Shown piece by piece: positions 18,923-35,789 of a stretch of DNA of 35,789 nt (its first letter is position 1; each line of letters starts with the position of its first letter). Where the stretch lies: IMG/VR virus record IMGVR_UViG_3300025704_000058, positions 1 to 35,789 of that record; one strand, given 5' to 3'. This stretch comes from a virus. The position numbers and the translations under genes were made by a program. Below the pieces are notes generated by a model. It was not told the origin of the DNA. It saw only the letters and a program-made list of their open reading frames with translations, and searched no databases.

Positions 18923-18936
18923 CACGGCTTGCCGTG
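18923..18936 (+). other. 5' hairpin of the early mRNA
   Basis: CACGGC (18923-18928) and GCCGTG (18931-18936) form a perfect 6-bp stem with a 2-nt gap a few bases after the predicted start. It precedes the first 32-nt leader and may cap the primary 5' end. Confidence 0.5.
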
Positions 18937-18940
18937 CATG

Positions 18941-18972
18941 ATCTTAATAACTACATAAGGACTAAGACAATG
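18941..18972 (+). repeat. 32-nt translation leader, copy 1
   Basis: The first of four equal-length copies, read as AATAACTACATAAGGA, then CTAAGACA, then ATG. AAGGA lies 8 nt before the start codon, ideal for ribosome binding. It differs from the others at single positions only. Confidence 0.85.
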
Positions 18973-19335: not shown

Positions 19336-19357
19336 CTATATAAGGACTAAGACAATG
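19326..19357 (+). repeat. 32-nt translation leader, copy 2
   Basis: The same layout: AATAACTATATAAGGA, CTAAGACA, ATG. It overlaps the end of the first early gene, whose TAA (19333-19335) is within the AATAAC element. No ribozyme precedes this copy. Confidence 0.85.
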
Positions 19358-19513
19358 CAAACAACATACACTATTGACCTCACAAGCGTAGGCAATCAAT
19401 CACAGAAAACTAAAACATTCTTAGAGAATGCAACTAATGAACAAATAACTAAATGGTTAGTTAATCAAGTCAAAAAAGGTGATGTTTATATTGATAGCTT
19501 TATTGAGGAATAA
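19355..19513 (+). CDS. Small early protein, hypothetical 52 aa
   Basis: A 52-aa protein, polar with Thr/Gln/Lys (TIDLTSVGNQSQKTKTF, then KWLVNQVKKGDVYIDSF). No domain recognised. It has its own copy of the leader, and its stop ends 2 nt before the first hammerhead ribozyme. Confidence 0.65.
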   Translation: MQTTYTIDLTSVGNQSQKTKTFLENATNEQITKWLVNQVKKGDVYIDSFIEE

Positions 19514-19515
19514 CA

Positions 19516-19567
19516 GCATAACTGATGAGTCCTAATTGGACGAAACCAACGCGAGTTGGTCTTATGC
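19516..19567 (+). ncRNA. Type I hammerhead ribozyme 1
   Basis: The sequence folds as a complete hammerhead. Stem I is GCATAA (19516-19521) with TTATGC (19562-19567). The core CTGATGA (19522-19528) is followed by stem II GTCC-TAATT-GGAC (19529-19541), then GAAA (19542-19545). Stem III is CCAAC-GCGA-GTTGG (19546-19559) with a GNRA tetraloop, then U16.1 and C17 (19560-19561). Every stem is fully Watson-Crick paired. Stem I is open, making it type I. The predicted cut is between 19561 and 19562, 9 nt upstream of leader copy 3. It separates the 52-aa gene from the next gene in the mRNA. Confidence 0.93.
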
Positions 19568-19570
19568 AAC

Positions 19571-19602
19571 ATCTTAATAACTATATAAGGACTAAGAAAA
19601 TG
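19571..19602 (+). repeat. 32-nt translation leader, copy 3
   Basis: AATAACTATATAAGGA, CTAAGAAA, ATG. After cleavage by hammerhead 1 the RNA would begin only 9 nt upstream of this leader, with a 5'-hydroxyl end. Confidence 0.87.
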
Positions 19603-19923
19603 AGAAAAGTAACCGAGCAAATAACAGAAGCATTCTTAAATGGTCGTAAATTAACAGTTGGCAATTCCATGACTGATGGCAATTCGATATTTTTACACGG
19701 CAACAAAATAGCATGGCGCGATGAAGGCGAGTTATTCATTTCGATGTGCGGTTGGGGTACACCTACAACACGCGAACGCCTTAACGGGTTATTACGTACT
19801 ATCAATGCAGATGTTCGTATTCACCAAAGAAACTATGAGCAATTGTTGGTTAATGATAAAACAAAGGTTCAAATTCCAATGATACAAAGCAACGCGGACG
19901 TCATCGTTCGAGTGGAGGTGTAA
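19600..19923 (+). CDS. Conserved hypothetical early protein (107 aa)
   Basis: A 107-aa protein. The middle reads AFLNGRKLTVGNSMTDGNSIFLHGNKIAW, then SMCGWGTPTTRERLNGLL. This pattern (gNS-DG-LHGN-IA, GW-TPTTRERLN) is familiar from small plasmid and phage proteins of proteobacteria with no assigned function. It is the first gene after hammerhead 1. The downstream gene begins 2 nt after its stop. Confidence 0.65.
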   Translation: MRKVTEQITEAFLNGRKLTVGNSMTDGNSIFLHGNKIAWRDEGELFISMCGWGTPTTRERLNGLLRTINADVRIHQRNYEQLLVNDKTKVQIPMIQSNADVIVRVEV

Positions 19924-19925
19924 CC

Positions 19926-20354
19926 ATGACTACTCAACTAGTTCAATTACCTAAATGGTCCTCATGGGAGGTAGAAACATTCTCAAGGGTAATCAATGGC
20001 GTGAAAGAATATGCCTATATGGTCCTTGAGTATAAGTGGCATTCTTTGCAATTGGAGGATGGTTATAAACTTATTCCCTCCAAAGAACACAAAATCATTG
20101 CGCCATTATTTAGCAATCTTGCCTCAGATCGAGTGGAAGGGTTTGATAATAACGAAGCTTTTGTTATTGACGGCACTATTTTGAATGAAGAATCAGACGG
20201 TGGATATTGTGGAATTGATTTTGTAGGTCAAGATCACATCGAGAAAGAATTTAAGGCTTTGGAAGGTGATAACCCAAGCGAACGCGATGTGTTGGAGCAA
20301 ATGGGCTTTGGCGAGGACGAATGGTACATTGTGGTTCAAGGGGGTGCATTATGA
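19926..20354 (+). CDS. Hypothetical early protein (142 aa)
   Basis: A 142-aa acidic protein with Trp/Glu/Asp patches (LPKWSSWEVETFSRV; GFGEDEWYIVVQGG) and no recognised domain. It has a GGAGGTG ribosome site in the end of the previous gene. Its stop overlaps the next start (ATGA at 20351-20354), so it is coupled to the following protein. Confidence 0.6.
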   Translation: MTTQLVQLPKWSSWEVETFSRVINGVKEYAYMVLEYKWHSLQLEDGYKLIPSKEHKIIAPLFSNLASDRVEGFDNNEAFVIDGTILNEESDGGYCGIDFVGQDHIEKEFKALEGDNPSERDVLEQMGFGEDEWYIVVQGGAL

Positions 20355-20782
20355 ACATCAAGCAACTAGTTAATTATATGTATGAATGCGCGGAGATGAA
20401 CTGCGACACATGGCAAGAGCCATACAGGGACAAGTTCGAGGCTTGGGAACTGTCCCACGAATCAACATGGCTTGAAGATTATGAAGATATGCAAGAGGAA
20501 TACGGCGTTACATGGTCGCAAATCAATGAAGCAATCGACATCATAAACGCGGAAGTATCCAAGATGACAACCAAATATATCGTTGAAACCTACACGATCT
20601 GCGATGGTTGGACGAATGCTTGGCATACTGACGGCGAGCCGCAAACATTCCCGACCTACAAGCAAGCGGAGAAAGAACTGGAGGATTTCTTTGCAGACAT
20701 TAGCGAAGCATACGAGGCGGAAGACTTACCCGACGAATACAACCGCGAGGACTACCGCATAGTTGCACTGACGAGGGTTTAA
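20351..20782 (+). CDS. Two-part early protein (143 aa) with internal start candidate
   Basis: A 143-aa protein. The N-terminal 70 residues are acidic and helical (AWELSHESTWLEDYEDM). The C-terminal 72 residues (MTTKYIVETYTICDGWTNAW, PTYKQAEKELEDFFADI, DYRIVAL) match a small stand-alone family common in proteobacterial plasmids and phages. An in-frame ATG at 20564 has GGAAG 8 nt upstream, so the C-terminal part may also be made alone. The last codons and the stop TAA (20780-20782) lie inside hammerhead 2, so ribozyme and coding sequence constrain each other. Confidence 0.65.
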   Translation: MNIKQLVNYMYECAEMNCDTWQEPYRDKFEAWELSHESTWLEDYEDMQEEYGVTWSQINEAIDIINAEVSKMTTKYIVETYTICDGWTNAWHTDGEPQTFPTYKQAEKELEDFFADISEAYEAEDLPDEYNREDYRIVALTRV

Positions 20783-20813
20783 TACCCGAAACGCCCGCGA
20801 GGGTGTCTGCAAC
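20762..20813 (+). ncRNA. Type I hammerhead ribozyme 2, overlapping a stop codon
   Basis: A second complete hammerhead. Stem I is GTTGCA (20762-20767) with TGCAAC (20808-20813). The core CTGACGA (20768-20774, C at the free position 7) is followed by stem II GGGT-TTAAT-ACCC (20775-20787), then GAAA (20788-20791). Stem III is CGCCC-GCGA-GGGTG (20792-20805, one G-U pair), then U and C (20806-20807). The cut is predicted between 20807 and 20808. Stem sequences differ from copy 1 in all three stems, while core, stem lengths and GCGA loop are kept. The TAA of the preceding gene (20780-20782) is in loop II. Confidence 0.93.
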
Positions 20814-20845
20814 ATATTAATAACTATATAAGGATTAATACCATG
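20814..20845 (+). repeat. 32-nt translation leader, copy 4
   Basis: AATAACTATATAAGGA, TTAATACC, ATG. It begins directly after stem I of hammerhead 2, so the cleaved RNA has only 6 nt before it. It is the most diverged copy (3' part) but keeps the exact 32-nt length. Confidence 0.87.
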
Positions 20846-21103
20846 GAAGATCAATTCATCCAACTACAACTCGAGGACGCCTCGCCCGAGGTTAACGAAG
20901 CCTTACTACCTTATGACATTGTTATTCGCGTAGATGATCAAGGCAAGCCCTCAAGCTTCACGCTCGAGCTTAACCACGAACACCGCAACGATCAAACTGT
21001 TATAGATTATTACGACAGCTCAAAGGTTGCGCAGTCATTCGATATAGAAGCCGAGATTATTGAAATGAATCGATACTATAACGGGGGGCTGAGTAATGGT
21101 TAA
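20843..21103 (+). CDS. Hypothetical early protein (86 aa)
   Basis: An 86-aa, strongly acidic protein (LQLEDASPEVNEALLPYDIVIRV). No domain recognised. It is the first gene after hammerhead 2 and overlaps the recombinase start by 8 nt, so cleavage would create a unit in which this protein leads the recombinase, exonuclease and annealing genes. Confidence 0.65.
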   Translation: MEDQFIQLQLEDASPEVNEALLPYDIVIRVDDQGKPSSFTLELNHEHRNDQTVIDYYDSSKVAQSFDIEAEIIEMNRYYNGGLSNG

Positions 21104-21788
21104 ATATGTAACTTACTTGCGCGTTTCAACGAATCAACAGCGCGATTCAGGTTTGGGGATCGAGGCGCAGAGGGCTTTAGTTATGTCGCATATTTCTGCC
21201 AATAACGGAGAACTGGTTGCGGAGCTTATCGACTACGAATCCGGGGCAAAAACTACGCGAATCGAGCGCCCAAACTTACATCTTGCGCTTGAAATGGTGA
21301 AGTTTACGCCGGGCTGTAAATTGCTATTAGCAAAAACGGATAGGCTCGCCCGAGATCTGCATTTTGTTAGCGGATTGCTTAAGGATGATGTCCCCGTAAT
21401 AGTGGCAGGGCATGAGAACATGACAAAGTTAGAATGGCATATGCACGCCATGATAGCCGAGCATGAGCGCGACATGATTAGCCAACGTACTAAGGCGGCA
21501 CTCGAGCAAGCCAAGGCGCGTGGCGTTGTGTTAGGTCCTCCACGCGATCAAGTGGCATGGATTAGTGCCAAAGGCGGTGAAGCAACACGCCAACGGGGCT
21601 TTACCTATCGTAAGAAAGTTATGCCAATGCTGAAGCAACTGCTCGAAGATCCGCAGTACTGGAAGCGAGGCAATAAGAACTTGCCACGATATGATAAGCT
21701 TGCCGACCGCATGCACGAACTAGGTTTTTTATCACCGCGCGACAAGCAAATAACACGATCAACTATTTATCAACTTTTAAAAAGGTAA
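21096..21788 (+). CDS. Serine recombinase (resolvase/invertase family)
   Basis: A 230-aa protein. The N-terminal catalytic domain has YLRVSTNQQ with nucleophile S11 and R9, a central KTDRLARD (R83, R86) and the long helix IAEHERDMISQRTKAAL (E124, R125). These are the hallmark residues of serine recombinases. The C-terminal 60 residues end in an HTH-like ITRSTIYQLLKR. It is longer than Hin/Gin invertases (about 190 aa) and much shorter than large serine integrases. It could resolve multimers, invert DNA or integrate; no crossover site was found. It is coupled to the preceding 86-aa gene. Confidence 0.9.
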   Translation: MVKYVTYLRVSTNQQRDSGLGIEAQRALVMSHISANNGELVAELIDYESGAKTTRIERPNLHLALEMVKFTPGCKLLLAKTDRLARDLHFVSGLLKDDVPVIVAGHENMTKLEWHMHAMIAEHERDMISQRTKAALEQAKARGVVLGPPRDQVAWISAKGGEATRQRGFTYRKKVMPMLKQLLEDPQYWKRGNKNLPRYDKLADRMHELGFLSPRDKQITRSTIYQLLKR

Positions 21789-21792
21789 CAAA

Positions 21793-22761
21793 ATGACTGA
21801 ACAAAAAACAGCAGAAGGAAAACTAACGCCGGACGACATTGCTACGGGTAGTGTGGTTGCGGCATTGATGAACCAAAATCCATTCATGAGCGCTAACGAT
21901 GTACTACAGCGCGCATTTGATGCGGTTACAGGCCTGCCTCGTAAAGAACTAACCTTTGAAGCTTTGCACTGGGGGACACAATTTGAAGTACCTATCATTG
22001 ATGAAGCATGTAAGCGGTTAGCATTATCTGACTATAAAACAGACTTTGGCCGCGCTTTTTATCATGACGACTATCCTATGGCAGTAAGCTTAGACGCCAC
22101 TGCTGAGGGTGATGGCAGAGAACTAGTGACTGACCCGGACAAAGGCATTTATTGCGCCAATGCAAATAGAATCTTTTTGAAGGGTAAGGGTATCATCGAA
22201 GCAAAACTTACGTCACATGACGCTGAGTCAGAACTGCCACCGTATCGCGGTAAGCTTCAGCTGCAAATGGCCATGGATATTATGGGTTGTGAATGGGGTG
22301 CTGTTGCAGTCCTACACAAAGGCATAAAACTAGCTATTCATGTATTTAAGCGAGATAACACGCTTATCAACGAAATTAGAGACACTGCGGTGGACTTTAA
22401 GAAACGCGTAGATAAGTACAAAGAGGCAGAAGAAACTGATTGGTATCAATTTACTTCTACTCGATCTGCCGCGGCTATCTTTGATGAAGTCAATGATTCT
22501 GTACTGGCTATTCCTGCGCTTGAAGACGAAGTCAAAGCTGTTGATCAAATGCGCCAAGACATCAAGCTCTTAGAACAAAGACTTGAAGTGACACAAGCTA
22601 ACATTATGGGTAAAATGGGAGCCGCTAAGATATTAAGAGCCGGTAAGTACAGCGTAACATGGCCAACTATTAACTACAAAGCAGTACCCGAAAAGATAGT
22701 GCCGGCTAAGGAAGCTAGAACTATTCGTATAAATAAACTGAGGATTAAAAAAGATGACTAA
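21793..22761 (+). CDS. YqaJ-type viral exonuclease (PD-(D/E)XK)
   Basis: A 322-aa protein. The nuclease core shows HWGTQFE (E65), AVSLDATAEG (D101), GIIEAKLTS (E136, K138) and KLQLQMAM (Gln motif). That is the order of lambda-exonuclease-like YqaJ family enzymes, which resect double-stranded DNA 5' to 3'. The C-terminal third has a coiled-coil stretch (DQMRQDIKLLEQRLEVTQANI), common in phage YqaJ proteins. With the ERF protein two genes downstream it makes a two-component recombination system like Red. It begins 4 nt after the recombinase stop. Confidence 0.88.
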   Translation: MTEQKTAEGKLTPDDIATGSVVAALMNQNPFMSANDVLQRAFDAVTGLPRKELTFEALHWGTQFEVPIIDEACKRLALSDYKTDFGRAFYHDDYPMAVSLDATAEGDGRELVTDPDKGIYCANANRIFLKGKGIIEAKLTSHDAESELPPYRGKLQLQMAMDIMGCEWGAVAVLHKGIKLAIHVFKRDNTLINEIRDTAVDFKKRVDKYKEAEETDWYQFTSTRSAAAIFDEVNDSVLAIPALEDEVKAVDQMRQDIKLLEQRLEVTQANIMGKMGAAKILRAGKYSVTWPTINYKAVPEKIVPAKEARTIRINKLRIKKDD

Positions 22762-22939
22762 ACAAGAAAAAGACGATCACGACTGGTTAGAAACTTTAGC
22801 CGGTCGCATTGTGCAAGATGCTGATCCAATTATTGTGAAGCAGGCAAAGTTGGTGAGGCAGGTAATATCAGAAAGACGTAACACAAACTTTATTAAACAA
22901 TACATGGGAGAAACAGATGGAAACTTCGGCGATTGCTAA
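22754..22939 (+). CDS. Small hypothetical protein between exonuclease and ERF
   Basis: A 61-aa protein, acidic at the N-terminus (QEKDDHDWLETLAGRIV) then basic (VRQVISERRNTNFIKQY). It overlaps the exonuclease end by 8 nt and the ERF start by 23 nt. The location suggests a recombination accessory. No family recognised. Confidence 0.55.
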   Translation: MTKQEKDDHDWLETLAGRIVQDADPIIVKQAKLVRQVISERRNTNFIKQYMGETDGNFGDC

Positions 22940-23318
22940 AGCATTCTTAGCTGCACAAAAGGCGTTCGCGCCTGCAATAAAAACTAGTACCAATCCGCAT
23001 TTTAGAAGTAAGTATGTATCATTGGATGGTTGTATCGAAGCAGTAATTGACGCACTACATAACAATGGTATGTCAATGATCCAAAAGACACATGATTGCG
23101 AGACTGGGATTAAGATTGAAACTATCCTGCTCCATGAGTCAGGCGAAACGATGTCAGGTGGTACGTTGTATGTACCGGCTAACAAACATGACGCCCAAGG
23201 CTATGGGTCAGCATTAACTTATGCTAGACGTTACTCACTTATGTCAACCTGTGGCATTGCCCCGGAAGATGATGATGGTAATGCAGCAGTAAAGGCAGAA
23301 CTGCCAAAAAAGGCATAA
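22917..23318 (+). CDS. erf: ERF-family ssDNA annealing protein, zero-frame product
   Basis: A 133-aa protein with the ERF family core: NPHFRSKYVSLDGCIEAV, GMSMIQKT, LLHESGETMSGG, DAQGYGSALTYARRYSL, then GIAPEDDDGNAA. ERF proteins anneal complementary single strands in phage recombination. The family is usually near 200 aa; this frame stops early at 23318. The stop directly follows A AAA AAG (23306-23312), and a -1 shift there joins it to 83 more codons (to 23563) for a 215-aa protein. SD GGGAGA precedes the ATG. Confidence 0.88.
   Translation: METSAIAKAFLAAQKAFAPAIKTSTNPHFRSKYVSLDGCIEAVIDALHNNGMSMIQKTHDCETGIKIETILLHESGETMSGGTLYVPANKHDAQGYGSALTYARRYSLMSTCGIAPEDDDGNAAVKAELPKKA
23306..23312 (+). 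promoter_or_regulatory. dnaX-type -1 frameshift heptamer
   Basis: A AAA AAG is in the right phase (zero frame CCA AAA AAG GCA TAA). AAAGG ends 10 nt upstream of it, where dnaX has its stimulatory Shine-Dalgarno. Downstream only a small GGC-ATAA-GCC hairpin is seen. A deletion or sequencing error in the A6 run would give the same picture. Confidence 0.6.
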
Positions 23319-23749: not shown

Positions 23750-24034
23750 ATGAGTCAAACATACCAGTACGACCATACAACTGACGTAGAATTGTATAGT
23801 GAATCTGATCCATCTAAAGATATAGAGATGGTCCCATTGCTGCAAGCAGTTTTATATCAGGCAGTACATGATGCGATTAGATTAAAACCTAACAGTGCAG
23901 ATAAATTAGAAGCAACTCAATGGCTATGTGATGAAAATAATCATATGTTGCAATTGTGTTTGTCGTGTGTCAAAATGGATTATCAAAAAATAATTCGTAA
24001 GGTAGCGAAACAGGGATGGAACCTCAATTTATAG
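23750..24034 (+). CDS. Hypothetical protein (94 aa)
   Basis: A 94-aa protein: polar N-terminus, then a helical hydrophobic part (MVPLLQAVLYQAVHDAIRL) and a Cys-containing LQLCLSCVKM. I use the ATG at 23750 with AAAGG about 10 nt upstream; the ATG at 23732 has no ribosome site. No family recognised. It overlaps the next gene by 19 nt. Confidence 0.6.
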   Translation: MSQTYQYDHTTDVELYSESDPSKDIEMVPLLQAVLYQAVHDAIRLKPNSADKLEATQWLCDENNHMLQLCLSCVKMDYQKIIRKVAKQGWNLNL

Positions 24035-33998: not shown

Positions 33999-35789
33999 TA
34001 AGTTTTCCTACACGCATTAATAAAATCAAGGTCACCGTCCATAACAGTTAAGTTGTCTAGTGCCTGTCGCAATGTAATACCATTACCCTCTGCGTCAAAG
34101 TCAATAACCCTTGCGCCTAATCCATCGTCAAGCTCTAATCTACCTTTAATAATACCTTCAACATTAGCAACATCCACGTTCATCTGCTTTGATACTACGC
34201 CTTCTGCATACTTGATTAGGTCTTTGTTTCGTTTTTTAAACTCATCTGAGACGCGATTAATTTGCGCTGTAACATTGCTTTCAATGAGCTGACCATTGTG
34301 GTAGAGGCCATCGTAGCGGCCTTCATCAACTGCTGTTCTGATATCATCGATTGCGCTTCCAATGGCTCTGTCTGTGCTGTCTCCGTTGGCAATGGCTTGG
34401 GCTGATCGAGTGATTTGTCCATAGACTTCACTGTCTTTGTTCCCATATTCTTTGATGATTTGTATTGCTTTTTCATTCTGTTTTCTCCTAGTAACGTCAG
34501 CCTTTTTCTTAGACTTCTTCAGTGTTATATTCTCTTTCTCTAATGCACCTAACACTCCATCAATTACTTGCCTTCTCTCTTGTTCTACAAATAATGATTT
34601 AATGCTTTGGTCTACTGTGCTAATATCATAAGTCTTTAATGAGCCATCTTCAATAGATTGTAGAATTAATGCTTCTACTGCTTCATCATCATTGATATTT
34701 GCTTTTTTAATTTTATCAATCATTGCTAGTTGTTCTGTAGCATCGTCAACATGCTTACCAATCAATGCAGCAATGTTTTCAGTAATAATGTTTCTCTCTA
34801 CAGCTATGAGTGATCTAGGTGCTAATCTTAGTAAGTTTTTAGTTTGTTTAATCAATGGGTCAAAAAGAGATAATGCTTGCACAAGATCATCATACTTACT
34901 CAGTATGTTCATGTCATATTCTTTAATGGTGCCATCATAATAGTTTCTAATGCGCGCTGCCATCTCAGCGGTTTCTTTAGTAAAGCCGTCTGTTTCTTTT
35001 AAGACCACTCCATACATCTTCTTCTGCCCAGCCTTAGCCGCACCTTTAACTCTCTTCCCTCCATCCATAACAGTTTTATTCCCGGCAGCATCTTCAAAGA
35101 CAAGTATGTGTCCTTGATTAATTTCATCTACTGCTTCCCCGGTAACCTTAGTATCTGGATCTAGTTCTTTAACATCAAACTCATCAATCTTGGCATTTTG
35201 TTTTTCTAGTGCGTATATATCATCTACATCTACCTGTACTGTTTGTGGCCTAATAGCATCAGGATCATTGCGCAATATAGCGCTTAGTGTAGAGCGTACT
35301 TTGTTGTTGTGCTTAGAGTTACTGACATCATTTTCCATGTAGTTTTCTTTGTCTGTAATCTCATCAATAGACTCTTTGTTTTCTATTTGCTGTAAAGTCT
35401 TGTCTTTAACGTACGGCGTACCATTAGCCTCTGCTGCTACTTCTCTAAATAACTCAACAGCCTCTAACTCTTCTTTAGGTGTAAAAGCTCTATTAGCTTT
35501 TGCTTTAACTGCACTAAGCCATGATCTAAGAGGAATGCTAGTAACGCCAACTAATGCTGCTGTGCCTGCTGTAATAAGCCCTGCGTCCTTTAAAAACTGT
35601 TCTCCGGTGTATGGGCTACCTGTAACACGTTCTGTCCATGCTGTGACGTTTGGATAGTCTAAGGCTTCTACACCTACGTTAATAGCAGATGCCTCTGCAA
35701 TCTTACGCAACAGGCTTGCTTTACCAGTTACTCCAATAAATAAAGATGCTACATCACTTGGGTCAGTCATATATGCTGTCATGCTACCA
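33998..35789 (-). CDS. Internal virion protein with ParB-like domain, C-terminal part
   Basis: The larger part of the 766-aa protein whose N-terminus is at 1-664; the frame is open through the right edge. Around 34.9-35.2 kb it contains VDDIYALEKQNAKIDEFDV, then ILVFEDAAGNKTVMDGGKRVKGAAKAG and YGVVLKE. The order (GN-TVMDGGKRV-GAAKAG) recalls ParB/Srx-type nuclease folds (vvDGhHRl-A). Such ParB-like domains occur in large polyvalent phage proteins delivered into the host. Most of the remainder is long helix. Its stop TAA overlaps the ATG of the 841-aa gene. Confidence 0.75.
   Translation of the reverse strand, partial: GSMTAYMTDPSDVASLFIGVTGKASLLRKIAEASAINVGVEALDYPNVTAWTERVTGSPYTGEQFLKDAGLITAGTAALVGVTSIPLRSWLSAVKAKANRAFTPKEELEAVELFREVAAEANGTPYVKDKTLQQIENKESIDEITDKENYMENDVSNSKHNNKVRSTLSAILRNDPDAIRPQTVQVDVDDIYALEKQNAKIDEFDVKELDPDTKVTGEAVDEINQGHILVFEDAAGNKTVMDGGKRVKGAAKAGQKKMYGVVLKETDGFTKETAEMAARIRNYYDGTIKEYDMNILSKYDDLVQALSLFDPLIKQTKNLLRLAPRSLIAVERNIITENIAALIGKHVDDATEQLAMIDKIKKANINDDEAVEALILQSIEDGSLKTYDISTVDQSIKSLFVEQERRQVIDGVLGALEKENITLKKSKKKADVTRRKQNEKAIQIIKEYGNKDSEVYGQITRSAQAIANGDSTDRAIGSAIDDIRTAVDEGRYDGLYHNGQLIESNVTAQINRVSDEFKKRNKDLIKYAEGVVSKQMNVDVANVEGIIKGRLELDDGLGARVIDFDAEGNGITLRQALDNLTVMDGDLDFINACRKT
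35635..35789. repeat. Direct terminal repeat, right copy (circle join)
   Basis: Equals bases 1-155 except G at 35663 (T at 29). Continuing from 35789 to 156 restores one uninterrupted 766-codon gene, so the two ends join. Confidence 0.93.

Follow-up and report, generated by a model that had tools for sequence, protein, structure and literature searches.

A predicted type I hammerhead ribozyme overlapping a stop codon in the apparent early operon of a marine phage

This analysis concerns a 35.8-kb virus record (IMG/VR IMGVR_UViG_3300025704_000058, positions 1 to 35,789), hereafter the window. It is related to MEP301, a cultured marine phage of Methylophilales (OM43) bacteria, with which it shares 83% identity in part of the region. 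The structural genes of the window are on the minus strand. A block from approximately 18.97 to 23.3 kb is on the plus strand, as are the ribozymes, genes, and leaders described for it below, and its gene order indicates an apparent polycistronic early operon. The operon contains two hammerhead ribozymes, HHR1 (19516–19567) and HHR2 (20762–20813), which are 1246 nt apart and located on the strand of the genes. HHR1 is preceded by the gene of a 52-residue protein (19355–19513), whose TAA is separated from stem I by 2 nt, and followed by that of a 107-residue protein of the Kyano_Gp96 family (19600–19923; PF23790, 1.2e-12). Relatives of the 107-residue gene in other phages (loci L085, L090, L091, L094, and L149) also adjoin hammerheads, mostly of a different stem I family, ACCTA/TAGGT. 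HHR2 is preceded by the open reading frame of a 143-residue homologue of MEP301 gp02 (20351–20782), which is without a family match and would be 153 residues long if translated from an alternative ATG. The genes behind HHR2 encode an 86-residue protein (20843–21103), in whose place relatives have other small genes, and, at the end of the block, a resolvase-type serine recombinase (21096–21788; Pfam PF00239, 1.6e-20), a RecE/YqaJ-like exonuclease (21793–22761; phrog_434, 1.7e-30), and an Erf single-strand annealing protein (22917–23318; Pfam PF04404, 1.5e-20).

Behind each of the two ribozymes, a copy of the TTAATAACTATATAAGGA leader precedes a start codon. The copy behind HHR2 (20814–20842) contains the SD sequence AAGGA at 20830–20834. 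The window has four copies of the leader TTAATAACTAYATAAGGA before start codons, at 18935, 19320, 19565, and 20808; two of them follow hammerheads, one follows a hairpin, and one is positioned directly after a gene. The leader looks like a phage-wide translation-start module. The hairpin, CACGG-CTTG-CCGTG (18923–18936), and the first leader copy form the head of the operon (18923–18961), and the hairpin is possibly a 5'-end stabiliser or a terminator of the promoter region. MEP301 has a hairpin of different sequence at the same place, near 34,730 (L273), directly 5' of its first leader copy. A T7-like promoter within the repeated leader was considered and set aside; copies of the leader also stand where there is no ribozyme. 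A scan for promoters and terminators returned nothing above the chance level given by shuffled sequences.

HHR2 is built from three helices around the catalytic core, and its segments agree with the hammerhead core rule CUGANGA...GAA(A)...UH: CTGACGA (CUGACGA in the RNA) at 20768–20774, GAAA at 20788–20791, of which GAA (20788–20790) is the core segment, and UC at 20806–20807. Stem I is formed by GTTGCA (20762–20767), which is also codons 138–139 of the 143-residue gene, pairing with TGCAAC (20808–20813). Stem II with its loop (20775–20787) consists of GGGT (20775–20778) paired with ACCC (20784–20787) around loop II, UUAAU (20779–20783, TTAAT in the DNA). Stem III, ACGCCC/GGGUGU with a GCGA tetraloop (20791–20806), includes the A15.1–U16.1 pair (A20791–U20806), and the 10.1–11.1 pair is G–C (G20775–C20787). 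MFE folding of the 52-nt RNA yields precisely this three-way junction (−19.3 kcal/mol, z −2.6), and the junction persists when 151 nt of context are folded. Stems II and III are closed by loops, and stem I is open and carries the 5' and 3' ends, which is the type I topology. From the position of H17 in the hammerhead consensus, cleavage is predicted 3' of C20807 (20807–20808). Judged by sequence and fold, HHR2 is a genuine and complete type I hammerhead, which would be expected to cleave itself.

Fast hammerhead cleavage at low Mg requires a tertiary contact between the stem I region and loop II. Stem I of HHR2 is without a closing extension. Loop II has a 5-bp match to AUUAA at 20816–20820. 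A pseudoknot joining loop II to the tail was rejected as a conserved feature, since the pairing was not enriched across the set (15 versus 11 expected among the matches listed), and the tertiary contact is therefore hypothetical for HHR2. Flanking A residues are conserved in 75/95 and 78/95 loci among the matches listed.

A chance origin of HHR2 was ruled out. A descriptor of the full structure matched only HHR1 and HHR2 within the window; there were no matches on either strand of 300 dinucleotide-shuffled windows, and none in reversed controls. HHR2 scored 64.4 bits (E 6e-21) with a covariance model built solely from phages outside its own clade, and HHR1 scored 71.9 bits with covariance model R1. 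Neither hammerhead of the window was detected by Rfam at the gathering cut-off, which is a detection threshold and not a biochemical criterion. HHR2 had no match to Hammerhead_1 (RF00163) and reached 18.8 bits with RAGATH-1-hammerhead (RF03152; cut-off 56.3), and HHR1 reached 29.8 bits with Hammerhead_1 (gathering score 34). The two Rfam models are unsuited to compact phage hammerheads, which annotation pipelines will overlook because the gathering thresholds miss both HHR1 and HHR2. A weak model match at 23775–23797 of the window (13.8 bits, E 0.11) is probably due to chance. The hit to the S16 leader at 20816 (E 6.5) was rejected as chance. No plasmid match was found.

The 3' end of the 143-residue gene, GTT GCA CTG ACG AGG GTT TAA, is composed of HHR2 bases, and the TAA (20780–20782) is inside loop II. 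The preliminary description of this DNA had placed a hammerhead at 20762–20813, with stems GTTGCA/TGCAAC, GGGT/ACCC, and CGCCC/GGGTG and the core CTGACGA, and had noted that the last codons and the stop of the gene are ribozyme bases; the descriptor and clade-excluded model uphold the identity at these exact coordinates, the sequence and fold reproduce the stems and core as given, and the overlap amounts to six codons and a stop within loop II. A distant homologue of the 143-residue protein, encoded in L029 without a hammerhead, has a C-terminal tail of similar length (NIVPIGHF versus RIVALTRV). This single comparison suggests that HHR2 came to overlap an old gene end and did not extend the gene.

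The preliminary description had proposed to look for the same element in related phages, and HHR2 is present at the same place in MEP301 and five metagenomic relatives, with its pairing kept. Over the 52 nt, only three changes occur among these relatives. The first is in core position 7 (C20772), the only core position free to vary and the sole varying core base, where C/A replaces threonine with lysine in the encoded protein; the second is an A/G change in loop II that converts the stop codon from TAA to TGA (L019/L026) and retains termination; and the third turns one G–C pair of stem II into G–U. HHR2 of MEP301 differs at 2/52 nt and both changes retain the fold, compared with 47/411 differing nucleotides in the upstream coding sequence. 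The relatives have thus preserved the fold of the RNA together with the stop codon, while up to 47 of 411 nt of the upstream coding sequence differ.

The covariation that had been claimed between HHR1 and HHR2 holds, and it is stronger among relatives: in 20 distinct 52-nt sequences, all 320 of 320 pair cells are standard, and 13 of the 16 pairs changed on both sides, so that each of the three helices covaries. Stem II of the HHR1 orthologues is GTCC/GGAC or GACC/GGTC, a compensatory change from T–A to A–T at one locus. The selection of loci drew on stems II and III and left stem I out; among the matches listed, the held-out stem I pairs in 95/99 loci versus 8.7 by shuffling. The identity of the core combined with compensatory change in the stems indicates selection on RNA structure and not on DNA sequence. 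It is highly improbable that HHR2 is a former ribozyme that is now inactive: the low Rfam score would fit such a relic, but every HHR2 relative has all the required core bases intact.

The genes around the two ribozymes are exchanged among close relatives. HHR1 keeps the downstream 107-residue gene and is combined with three different upstream genes, the stop codons of which are 2 nt upstream of the ribozyme, straddle its 5' end, or are in loop II. In the case of HHR2, the upstream gene is constant and three different downstream genes occur. The ribozymes therefore mark the edges of exchangeable blocks, and together with the repeated leader they split the apparent early operon into blocks. The swaps could mean that the ribozymes serve mainly as conserved recombination joints between gene cassettes, with RNA cleavage being secondary. 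We consider this unlikely, because an identical core with compensatory stem changes speaks for selection on the RNA.

The generality of the stop-codon overlap was evaluated in a survey of phage loci gathered by pattern and protein searches (4.65 Mb, both strands counted). The survey loci contain at least 142 hammerhead places, and the reversed controls contain none. Clustering by the upstream gene end reduced the places to 96 independent junctions among the matches listed, to which the following counts also refer. The upstream stop codon is located from −23 to +5 nt relative to the ribozyme 5' end in 85/96 junctions, compared with 12% at random positions, and it is inside the ribozyme in 54/96 clusters: within CUGA of the core in 16, straddling the 5' end in 15, in loop II in 11, in stem I in 10, and in stem II in 2. 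The longest open reading frame continues beyond the cut in only 2/95. Behind the cut, the median distances are 17 nt to the SD and 29 nt to the start codon; this downstream half of the layout is partly selected, because the search was biased towards ribozymes with a ribosome-binding site behind them, and the upstream half was not selected. Ribozymes with stops in all three frames number 28/95 versus 7 expected from composition. Selection for such stops was rejected, since they are equally common where unused (9/31) and used (15/54), and they look like by-products of the motif. Several loci have a series of 2–5 hammerheads spaced by one or two genes, and within a locus the ribozymes all share one strand. 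Phage contigs L165, L223, L247, and L266 contain three to six serial hammerheads, approximately one for each gene and in every case on the coding strand.

The hammerhead of phage PaP3 was missed by the descriptor and found by the model alone, and the survey is therefore an undercount. Bcep176 matched neither descriptor nor model, as expected from its core, which is a known variant. Stop-codon overlap is the layout of most phage type I hammerheads surveyed, among the matches listed. The position in loop II is not special, as HHR1 of the window phage, with the upstream stop 2 nt 5' of the ribozyme, and other survey junctions have different placements.

The layout can be explained by plain genome compaction, which we regard as the probable cause: a ribozyme that processes the mRNA has its 5' half in the upstream gene since phage intergenic space is short. 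At the remaining junctions of these loci, the median gap from stop to start is 13 nt, and the three-frame stops, found as often unused as used, point the same way. Nevertheless, junctions with a hammerhead spend 79 nt between stop and start, so that little is gained by saving a few codons, and compaction is compatible with a functional effect of the overlap.

Such an effect could be the gating by translation put forward in the preliminary description, in which ribosomes at the loop II stop hold the ribozyme unfolded, and cleavage reports on translation of the upstream gene. The stop in loop II was retained through the codon change from TAA to TGA, and the 85 of 96 stops at −23 to +5 among the matches listed are where a terminating ribosome covers stem I or the core. 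However, the stop is found variously in loop II, the core, stem I, or slightly upstream, and it moves even for HHR1, so that no single stop geometry is preserved; the same pattern is expected from compact packing. Compaction accounts equally well for the variable stop placement and the tight gene packing, and we hold gating of HHR2 to be a tentative possibility.

Based on its structure, conservation, and placement, HHR2 is likely a genuine hammerhead that would cut the early polycistronic mRNA at a gene boundary after C20807. Processing inside the cell would separate the 143-residue gene from the block of the 86-residue gene, recombinase, RecE, and Erf. The upstream piece would retain its whole reading frame, and normal termination would be possible, because the stop codon is 25 nt before the cut. 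Its 3' end would be the folded stem II and III part of the ribozyme, expected to carry a 2',3'-cyclic phosphate. The downstream piece would start with a 5'-OH and a 35-nt leader with a ribosome-binding site. Such 5'-OH and cyclic-phosphate ends may affect RNA decay, and cleavage at HHR2 may thereby alter mRNA stability. Ongoing translation would probably delay cleavage, because a terminating ribosome would occupy stem I, the core, and stem II. Some translational interference is physically plausible, since in nearly all 96 junctions among the matches listed a ribosome halting at the stop would lie over stem I or the core. We speculate, with considerable doubt, that phage hammerheads are a widespread termination-coupled switch, in which a terminating ribosome blocks cleavage and the loss of translation separates the operon. 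If this is true, the upstream stop is built into the ribozyme for this control.

Hammerheads in series between phage and prophage genes, flanking single genes or short blocks, were described by Perreault et al. 2011 (PMC3088659), who proposed that they process long phage transcripts; tandem phage hammerheads were found to cleave in vitro, as did one set inside E. coli. HHR1 and HHR2 resemble these sets in that several hammerheads on one strand flank genes of a phage operon, and HHR2 differs from them in its coding 5' half and its marine OM43 phage. The PaP3 hammerhead, which the same study lists among active variants, is located in NC_004466 directly after the stop codon of annotated orf67. 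Like HHR2, it is of type I, and its SD is about 12 nt beyond the predicted cut; in contrast to HHR2, its stop abuts the ribozyme and is not inside, stem I has 5 bp, the stem II loop is longer, stem III contains an insert, and the host is another one. RF00163 and RF03152 share the core and helix order with HHR1 and HHR2, although the scores are below the cut-offs. The text of PMC3088659 does not mention stop codons or coding overlap, and the paper on the MEP301 genome contains no mention of ribozymes; nor is stop-codon overlap described in the literature that we found, which consisted mostly of papers available without subscription. HHR2 belongs to a known ribozyme class, and the new part, which appears to be undocumented, is the systematic embedding of the stop codon. 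The layout yields a testable prediction, and MEP301, cultured with a known host, has HHR2 itself. The sequence of a stop in or against the ribozyme, a cut, and a ribosome-binding site links bacterial and phage hammerheads, whose role has been a question since 2011, to gene boundaries and translation.
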